Of a stretch of DNA of 64,000 nt, positions 4,502 to 46,607 are shown piece after piece. The DNA comes from Geotoga petraea (GTDB lineage Bacteria; Thermotogota; Thermotogae; Petrotogales; Petrotogaceae): positions 1 to 64,000 of the forward strand of contig NZ_FMYV01000006.1 of the NCBI RefSeq assembly GCF_900102615.1, written 5' to 3'. Below the pieces are notes generated by a model that did not search any database, was not told where the DNA came from, and saw only the letters and a list, made by a program, of their open reading frames with translations. The first letter of the stretch is position 1; every line of letters begins with the position of its first letter. The translations under genes were made by a program, and so were the position numbers.

Positions 4502-4572
4502 AATTTAAGTCTCCTCTGAATGTATCAGAGGAGTCCCTGTGAAACAGGGGAGGAGTTTAGGCACTTAATTTT
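4501..4572. repeat. MITE-like double-hairpin intergenic element
   Basis: The element has imperfect terminal inverted repeats (AAATTTAAGT at 4501-4510, ACTTAATTTT at 4563-4572) around two hairpins: CTCCTCTGA/TCAGAGGAG (4511-4533) and CCCTGT/ACAGGG (4535-4549). A GAGGAG at 4550-4555 could compete with the first hairpin. There is no T-run directly after either stem, so it is not a simple terminator. Similar twin-hairpin intergenic repeats are known in Firmicutes; membership of a family is inference. Confidence 0.5.
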
Positions 4573-4595
4573 AAAACAATTCCGAAATATAAAAA

Positions 4596-4634
4596 ATAAC
4601 ATAGTTTGAACTATTATAGTTCAAACTATGTTAT
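4596..4634. repeat. Perfect 39-base palindrome upstream of the ATPase gene
   Basis: Two perfect 19-base arms (left arm ATAACATAGTTTGAACTAT) meet around a single central T at 4615. A-rich sequence flanks the left side and AATTTTT the right. It ends 23 bases before the ATPase ATG and overlaps the only promoter-like TATAAT (4632-4637), so it could be an operator, a terminator for the upstream operon, or the end of a mobile module. A near copy lies just behind the gene at 6032-6070, identical at 36 of 39 positions. Confidence 0.85.
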
Positions 4635-4657
4635 AATTTTTATAAGGAGGTGAATTT

Positions 4658-6028
4658 ATGAAATTTGTTGGAAGAGAGAGTGAATTGAGTTTTTTAGAAG
4701 AACAGTATAATAGAGATAGTTCTATGGTTATTATTTATGGAAGAAGAAGAATTGGTAAAACTACCCTTATTAAAGAATTTATAAAAAATAAAAAAGCTAT
4801 TTACTTTCTTGCTACCGAAGAATCGATTAATGAGAACAGGAAGAATCTTCAAAATACTATTTTTCAGATTACTAAAAATAACTTTTATTCAGAGAATAAT
4901 GAAATAAATTGGGAAAATTTGTTTAACTTTGTTAATGGTGAAAAATGGATTTTAGTTATAGATGAATACCAATATTTAACTATGACGGATAAATCTTTTA
5001 CATCTAAAATTCAAAAAATTTGGGATGAATTTTTGAAGAATAAAAATGTGATGCTTGTTCTCAGTGGGTCGCTTACAAATATGATGTATTCAGAAACTTT
5101 GGATTCTTCGAGCCCATTATACGGGAGAAGAACGGGACAAATTAAGTTACAAGAACTATCTTTTGATGATTATAAGCAATTTTTTGATAATAAAAAAATA
5201 TCGGAAATAATAGATTTTTATTCGGTAACTGGAGGGGTGCCAAAGTATGTTGAATCTTTTGATTTGAGAAAATCCTTACTTCAAAATATAAAGGATAATA
5301 TCATTAACGTTAATAGTTATTTATATGAAGAACCCATATTTTTATTGAGTAAAGAAGTAAAAGAAATAGGTAGCTTTTTTTCTATTATTAAAAGCATTTC
5401 TTTTGGGAATCATAAATTATCTAAAATATCAGCTGATATTGGGATTAAACAATCTTCACTAATATATTATATTAATGTTTTACAAGATTTAGACATTATT
5501 GAAAGGCAGGTACCAATAACCGAAAAAAATCCTCAAAAAAGTAAAAGAGGGCTATATTTTATAAAAGATAAATTTATAAATTTTTGGTTTAATTTTGTAT
5601 ATCCATACAGAAATTTTATAGAAATGAACAACAAAACCTTTGTTTTAGAAAAAATAGAAAATAATTTAATAGATAATCACGTAAGTTTTGTTTATGAAGA
5701 TATTTGTAGAAAAAAAGTTTTGGATTTATCGGCGAACAATTTTTTTAATAAAAATATTATAAAGGTTGGGCGTTTTTGGAACAATAACTTTGAATTAGAT
5801 ATTTTGGGAGTTGATATCAAGCAGAATCCAGTTCTTTTTGGAGAGTGTAAATATCAAAAGAATAAAGTTGGAAAAGAAGTTTTGAATAAATTGAAGTTTA
5901 AAGCAGAGAAAATTTCTTCTAAAGAAAAAGTTTATGTTATCTTTTCAAAATCAGGTTTTAGAAAGGATTTATTGGATCTATCGGAAAAAGAAAATAATAT
6001 ATTTTTATTTGATAATAAAATATTATAA
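4658..6028 (+). CDS. AAA-type ATPase with C-terminal DUF234 (nuclease-like) domain
   Basis: A 456-residue protein. The N-terminal ATPase_2-type P-loop domain has GRRRIGKTT as Walker A (residues 28-36), WILVIDEYQYL as Walker B, and a sensor-like VLSGS segment. A winged-helix-like middle (LSKISADIGIKQSSLIYYI) leads to a DUF234 end with ELDILG followed by FGECKYQ, an acidic-then-ExK pattern like PD-(D/E)XK nucleases. This architecture is common and expanded in archaea and Thermotogota, and its role is unsettled; mobile-element or defence functions have been proposed. An AAGGAGG ribosome site lies 6 bases before the ATG. It stands alone between two nearly identical palindromes, unlike its neighbours, so horizontal acquisition is likely (inference). 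Confidence 0.88.
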   Translation: MKFVGRESELSFLEEQYNRDSSMVIIYGRRRIGKTTLIKEFIKNKKAIYFLATEESINENRKNLQNTIFQITKNNFYSENNEINWENLFNFVNGEKWILVIDEYQYLTMTDKSFTSKIQKIWDEFLKNKNVMLVLSGSLTNMMYSETLDSSSPLYGRRTGQIKLQELSFDDYKQFFDNKKISEIIDFYSVTGGVPKYVESFDLRKSLLQNIKDNIINVNSYLYEEPIFLLSKEVKEIGSFFSIIKSISFGNHKLSKISADIGIKQSSLIYYINVLQDLDIIERQVPITEKNPQKSKRGLYFIKDKFINFWFNFVYPYRNFIEMNNKTFVLEKIENNLIDNHVSFVYEDICRKKVLDLSANNFFNKNIIKVGRFWNNNFELDILGVDIKQNPVLFGECKYQKNKVGKEVLNKLKFKAEKISSKEKVYVIFSKSGFRKDLLDLSEKENNIFLFDNKIL

Positions 6029-6031
6029 AAA

Positions 6032-6077
6032 ATAACATAGTTTAGACTATTATAGTTTAAACTATGTTATTTTTTTG
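6032..6077. terminator. Palindrome copy acting as bidirectional terminator
   Basis: A 39-base near-palindrome (6032-6070; 19-base arms with one G:U-compatible mismatch) follows the ATPase stop by three bases. It has TTTTTTT on its right and an A-run on its left, so it can end both the ATPase transcript and the convergent MBL gene. Most of it repeats the 4596-4634 palindrome. Confidence 0.85.
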
Positions 6078-20639: not shown

Positions 20640-20790
20640 TATAAAATGTTTCGCATTTTGGTTGCTTTTTAGAAACCACTTTGTTCCTGTTGTTTGTTGA
20701 TATTTGTTTGTTGTTAGAAAAAAGCTGCTTTTTCGCTGTTTAGCAGTTTGGTAGATTTGTAGAAATAAAAACCAATACGCTAATTTTCTT
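20640..20790 (-). repeat. Degenerate copy of the heptamer-bearing intergenic repeat
   Basis: The gap between the yifB and MFS genes holds no credible gene. Read on the minus strand it has CAGCTTTTTTCTAACAACAAA, AACAAACAACAG and AAGCAACCAAAATGC, words shared with the intergenic repeats at 33725, 46312 and 50460. Confidence 0.55.
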
Positions 20791-46311: not shown

Positions 46312-46595
46312 AGAAATTGTTTTACAACAATTTCTGTTGAAGGTTTAAGGTTGGAAGTTGGAAGAAAAAACATTGATAAAAATCAAAAATAGAAAAAAAC
46401 CAACAACCAGCAACAAACAACCAACAAACCAACAACAAACAAACCAGCAACAAACAACCAGCAACCAGCAACCAGCAACCAGCAACCAACAACCAGCAAC
46501 CAGCAACCAGCAACCAACAACCAACAACAAACAAACCAACAACAAACAACCAGCAACCAACAACCAACAACCAACAACCAAAATGCAACTATCAA
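46312..46595 (+). repeat. Full-length heptamer-bearing intergenic repeat
   Basis: It opens with a hairpin (AGAAATTGTT/AACAATTTCT, 46312-46335), then CTGTTGAAGG, GTTGGAAGTTGGAAG, GAAAAAACATTGATAAAAAT, the heptamer array, and ends CAACCAAAATGCAACT. The start and end words recur at 20640, 33725 and 50460. No gene is credible in this 297-base gap. Confidence 0.75.
46398..46580 (+). repeat. Heptanucleotide tandem array
   Basis: About 25 head-to-tail copies of AAC(C/A)A(G/A)C, mainly AACCAGC and AACCAAC, with three copies one A longer. Seven is not a multiple of three, so no frame on the minus strand contains a stop, creating three false overlapping ORFs. Such arrays change length by slippage and are useful strain markers. 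Confidence 0.92.
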
Positions 46596-46607
46596 AGGGG
46601 GGTTAAT

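Follow-up and report, generated by a model that had tools for sequence, protein, structure and literature searches.

PDC-S27, a candidate system of PADLOC, combines an ATPase with a PD-(D/E)XK-superfamily domain in one protein; it is abundant in Archaea and Bacteria, as few other uncharacterised defence candidates are, and experimental validation is still lacking for most PDCs (PMC12988326). In the literature searched, outside which most subscription journals lie, no upstream palindrome or array is described for DUF234, COG1672, PF01637 or PDC-S27. Related folds occur in the archaeal Walker-type ATPases PABY2304 (2qen) and SSO1545 (2fna), with chains of about 350 aa, and in the ORC/Cdc6 initiators, which join an AAA+ domain to a winged helix and function at origins. 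These initiators recognise repeated sites that lie close to the genes encoding them. In autoregulated toxin-antitoxin and defence operons, the promoter of a potentially toxic gene contains a palindromic operator, to which an antitoxin or a separate repressor binds.

Here we analysed a stretch of 64,000 nt from Geotoga petraea (NZ_FMYV01000006.1, positions 1 to 64,000; hereafter the window), in which one gene of the PDC-S27 family (PADLOC HMM match, E = 2.8e-43 over residues 2-421) stands between two near-identical palindromes. In contrast to PDC-S27 as the searched papers describe it, this gene and many of its homologues carry a palindromic array, probably an operator. PABY2304 and SSO1545 are the best profile and fold matches to the window protein, but the match is limited to its ATPase/winged-helix part; ORC/Cdc6 initiators are similar in fold but lack the nuclease-like domain. 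The arrangement resembles that of toxin-antitoxin and defence operons, except that the proposed repressor domain lies inside the ATPase-nuclease effector, in a single gene, and that the operator units are spaced by the same 15-bp register in different phyla.

The Gene, Its Protein and the Two Palindromes

The features of the locus are as follows.

4596..4634, no strand assigned: upstream palindrome, the proposed operator, with two 15-bp units, ATAGTTTGAACTATT (4601-4615) and ATAGTTCAAACTATG (4616-4630)
4629..4637, plus strand: extended -10-like element TGTTATAAT, read from the sequence, overlapping the right end of the upstream palindrome
4644..4652, plus strand: putative Shine-Dalgarno sequence AAGGAGGTG, read from the sequence
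4658..6028, plus strand: PDC-S27-type gene, 456 aa, with ATPase_2, winged-helix and DUF234/PD-(D/E)XK parts
4664..5257, plus strand: P-loop ATPase domain, residues 3-200 (PF01637), Walker A GRRRIGKT at 28-35, Walker B D102-E103
5366..5563, plus strand: predicted winged-helix region, residues 237-302 (AF2 model), recognition helix 265-277, wing 285-298
5570..6025, plus strand: DUF234/PD-(D/E)XK nuclease-like domain, with E347, D381, E396 and K398
6032..6070, no strand assigned: downstream copy (36/39 identical), with two matching 15-bp units (6037-6051 and 6052-6066) and an extended stem (6027-6075) followed by a T-run

An earlier note, made from the window's letters, had described a perfect 19+1+19 palindrome before the gene and a copy of it shortly after, and both are confirmed: the first ends 23 nt 5' of the ATG at 4658, and the second starts 3 nt past the stop codon. 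The two are the cores of a longer direct repeat of 53 nt with 91% identity (4588-4640 and 6024-6076). At the base composition of the window, chance alone would produce a perfect palindrome of such length about 4e-6 times per 64 kb. A pattern search of the 2.17-Mb genome allowing up to three mismatches found the palindrome at these two places only, and a shorter-core pattern likewise found no further copies in the same genome. With two genomic copies only, an origin of the palindromes from a dispersed or REP-like repeat is ruled out. The comparison with Rfam families gave only sub-threshold chance matches. A peptidase gene lies on the upstream side of the locus and a convergent metallo-beta-lactamase gene on the downstream side. 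Between the peptidase and ATPase genes, at 4511-4549, there are also two adjacent G+C-rich hairpins (CTCCTCTGA..TCAGAGGAG and CCCTG..CAGGG), with no Rfam match over threshold.

The protein matches ATPase_2 (PF01637, E = 2.5e-25) and DUF234 (PF03008, E = 2.2e-22), both above the family cut-offs, and its nuclease-like domain has a profile match to AF1548 (1y88, E = 0.007). In an alignment of homologues, the Walker A/B residues G28, G33, K34, D102 and E103 and the PD-(D/E)XK residues E347, D381, E396 and K398 are invariant or nearly so, and the earlier proposal of an intact PD-(D/E)XK-type nuclease site thus holds for its four residues. The AlphaFold2 model of the 456-aa protein has a pLDDT of 96; in this model, the helices and strands between the ATPase and nuclease domains fit a winged helix. 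In Foldseek, the top matches were the archaeal ATPases 2qen and 2fna, followed by STAND and ORC/Cdc6 proteins. Through its membership of PDC-S27, the window gene is a candidate for an anti-phage role.

Phased Arrays Upstream of Homologues

To cover the family, we extracted 150 distinct genes, taking homologue loci from the window's family and phylum together with 80 named loci from species genomes; homologues on viral contigs were examined apart from this main set. Palindromes or tandem palindromic units stand directly 5' of the start codon in many homologues. Within the 120 nt upstream, 45% of homologues score 11 or higher for palindromes; the corresponding shares are 6% for control genes and 7% for the sequences downstream of the homologues themselves. 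By dinucleotide shuffles, 51% of the 146 homologues had significant upstream self-complementarity (P ≤ 0.005), compared with 5% of the 161 control genes and 4.7% of the homologues' own downstream flanks. In about 30% of homologues it was not significant.

The 90 nt before the start codon were compared with themselves at every shift in the 146 homologues. Mean self-match peaks at shift 15 (10.4), with a smaller value at shift 30 (4.9) and about 3.3 at all other shifts, whereas controls are flat at about 3.3. The best-scoring shift is 15 in 104 of 146 homologues and in 34 of the 56 representatives below 50% identity, compared with 5 of the 161 control genes and 7 of the 148 own downstream flanks. 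The strong dyads in these arrays are spaced by 7.5 bp, and the window palindrome itself consists of two units of the 15-bp register. In several archaea, this periodicity is less pronounced. Twelve plasmid and phage records, fetched after the period had been discovered, served as a hold-out, and shift 15 ranked first in 10 of their 12 homologues, including those of Fusobacteriota, haloarchaea and Methanocaldococcus jannaschii. A 2.1-Mb Fusobacterium record filed as a plasmid (NZ_CP084075.1) is probably a mislabelled chromosome.

A different period was found in the 90 nt upstream of sister ATPases of Thermotogota (L207-L226, about 365 aa, with a partial profile match), which are similar in length to 2qen and 2fna: shift 19 is the best in 11 of 20 and shift 15 in none of 20, in one unreplicated sample, and CTTCCGnnnnCGGAAGTAA is an example of such a 19-bp-period array.

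Plasmid iterons are phased repeats adjoining a gene, and by this likeness the arrays could be replication-type iterons, with an ORC/Cdc6-like initiator encoded beside its own binding sites; the Foldseek match to ORC/Cdc6 also speaks for such a reading. However, many Thermotogota have several of these ATPase-nuclease genes per genome, a nuclease domain is fused to the ATPase, and the context is chromosomal with a single gene, so that we regard iterons as extremely improbable.

Co-inheritance of Array and Protein

Among pairs of homologues at 60-80% protein identity, the proximal upstream sequence is shared in 73%, whereas the distal upstream and the downstream sequences are each shared in 0%. 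The array is therefore inherited together with the protein, and the neighbouring DNA is not. The 29-nt core ATAGTTTRAACTATTATAGTTYAAACTAT (ATAGTTTGAACTATTATAGTTCAAACTAT) of the window palindrome recurs with 28/29 and 27/29 matches before two genes of another Thermotogota family (loci L154 and L157), whose proteins are 51-52% identical to the window protein. In the tree, the window gene groups in one clade with genes from several Thermotogota families, a placement that weakens the case for a horizontal import, although its subclade was found in 1 of 21 genomes of its own family, that of the window alone.

The window genome encodes a second ATPase-nuclease gene on another contig (L004, contig C3), 36% identical to the window gene. 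It is flanked by two near-identical alpha/beta hydrolase genes whose terminators match, an arrangement that would fit a duplication of the hydrolase gene on either side of it. In two other places (L025, L026, L028 and L029, on G011:C9 and G007:C58), broken or partial related genes lie near longer ones, which suggests turnover in clusters.

Three orthologues of the peptidase gene (L031-L033) have neither a palindrome nor an ATPase gene in the stretch read, an orthologue of the lactamase gene (L198) ends in a different hairpin, and orthologues of the two flanking genes are never adjacent in the loci examined. Because the peptidase orthologues lack the palindrome and ATPase homologues carry the same operator-like site, the upstream palindrome is to be assigned to the ATPase gene and not to the peptidase gene, for which a terminator at this place is ruled out. 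Both copies do score as terminator-like, as they would if they were ordinary flanking terminators, the first ending the peptidase gene and the second resembling it by chance, an outcome that the earlier note had named as one of two refutations. This account fails on the three peptidase orthologues, on the 29-nt core shared with ATPase homologues, and on the 36/39 identity between two genome-unique sites, which is not chance; we give it a minimal probability.

Probable Recognition by the Protein's Own Winged Helix

For each alignment column, agreement between two proteins was used as a predictor of operator similarity, corrected for overall identity. The top predicting columns are P292, Y270 and Q265, in the predicted wing and recognition helix. 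As a region, helix and wing exceed the other columns (P = 8e-4 for all proteins, 2e-4 for representatives below 60% and 3e-4 for those below 50% identity), with bounds taken from AF2 secondary structure, yet after the first column ranking was seen. A downstream-DNA control had no effect (P = 0.87), and reversed upstream sequence had a weaker one (P = 0.012), so that composition accounts for part of the winged-helix effect. These statistics support recognition of the operator by the protein's own winged helix, a predicted DNA-binding domain of the product that co-varies with the site.

Alternatively, the array could be a nuclease target, where the ATPase-nuclease cuts or is loaded in a self-targeting or homing-like manner; a nuclease that recognises the palindromes was among the options of the earlier note. 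In favour are the intact catalytic residues, the co-variation of protein and array, and the restriction of the array to this one locus in the genome. Against it, the site is part of the gene's own chromosomal locus, where a cut would do harm, and in an exact-pattern scan of IMG/VR viral contigs the specific palindrome had no match. We consider a nuclease target very improbable.

The arrays could also act as RNA, as 5' leader hairpins that control translation or mRNA stability. As RNA, the palindromes form stable hairpins (z about -10), and several homologues have a -10-like element 5' of the array. An RNA hairpin, however, would not predict strict 15-bp direct periodicity across diverse sequences, the array of L154 and L157 lies 5' of a -10-like element, and array similarity follows the winged-helix residues. 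At the window gene, TGTTATAAT is followed by AAGGAGGTG and then by the ATG; by its consensus match, which the scan that scored terminators did not list, it may be the -10 element of the ATPase-nuclease promoter. If it is, the palindrome itself would be largely untranscribed, which favours a DNA operator, and we hold an RNA-level element to be improbable.

A Proposed Autoregulatory Operator

A palindromic site stands before the gene itself and is conserved in homologues, as is usual for an operator. We consider it quite likely that the upstream palindrome is the window gene's member of a family-wide autoregulatory operator bound by the encoded protein, and that the downstream palindrome is a duplicate and putative terminator. 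The idea of an autoregulated candidate defence gene with a palindromic operator, one of several put forward in the earlier note, thereby gains support from the phased arrays across phyla and from the apparent co-variation with the protein's own winged helix.

We propose that the operator consists of at least two palindromic units of about 15 bp in strict 15-bp register, with dyad axes every 7.5 bp, and that in PDC-S27-type ATPase-nuclease genes these units either immediately precede the start codon or cover the promoter. The gene product would bind the operator via its own winged helix, perhaps as an oligomer that depends on ATP state, and the bound protein would repress its own promoter, so that a potentially toxic nuclease is kept low until a trigger releases the repression. 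Because the position of the array relative to promoter-like elements varies among homologues, activation in place of repression is possible. A conserved DNA site beside most PDC-S27 copies offers a concrete, testable ligand and regulatory model for the family, and the exact 15-bp register would constrain how the ATPase assembles on DNA.

As a tentative and rather doubtful extension, PDC-S27 and the sister ATPases might be single-gene systems in which the effector is its own repressor on a rigid palindromic lattice, of 15 bp in the nuclease-bearing proteins and 19 bp in the sisters. A promoter-bound oligomer would then couple expression to the sensing of infection, and in the window the second lattice, 1.4 kb downstream, could allow a repression loop.

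The Downstream Copy

The downstream copy has no -10-like element and has TGTTATTTT at that place. It forms a hairpin of -23.5 kcal/mol followed by a T-run at the gene end, a consensus match to an intrinsic terminator, but its stem is A+T-rich with 3 G-C pairs, unlike a classical terminator. The missing -10 element, the T-run and the position between two convergent genes make a duplicated operator, now used as a terminator, the probable explanation; in the proposed mechanism, this local duplicate would act bidirectionally between the ATPase and metallo-beta-lactamase genes.

Flanking palindromes in ATPase homologues, which the earlier note had suggested looking for, are thus found family-wide on the upstream side, but convincing downstream copies occur in only 2 of 144 homologues, the window gene and one from KSB1, and bracketing as a general trait of the family is ruled out. 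The KSB1 locus (L051:2860-4430) has three operator blocks: two precede the start codon, by about 105 nt and by 11 nt, and the third follows the stop codon at a distance of about 20 nt.

The bracketing bears on a further possibility, also raised in the earlier note, that palindrome, gene and palindrome form a mobile cassette, moved or excised via its ends and possibly by its own nuclease. Exactly one gene is enclosed by the 53-nt direct repeats, the palindrome is absent from orthologues of both flanking genes, the subclade has its sporadic occurrence in the family (1 of 21 genomes), and the KSB1 homologue is flanked too. Against this, paired ends are not conserved among homologues, the genome holds no further copies of the palindrome, and an operator role already accounts for the upstream array. 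We therefore judge a mobile cassette unlikely to a high degree, and explain the palindrome as a feature of the family and not as a mobile end.

Elsewhere in the window, tandem repeats of the AACCAGCAACCA type occupy 46362-46605, and short TTGTTTGTTG-rich stretches related to them occur at 20684 and 33739.
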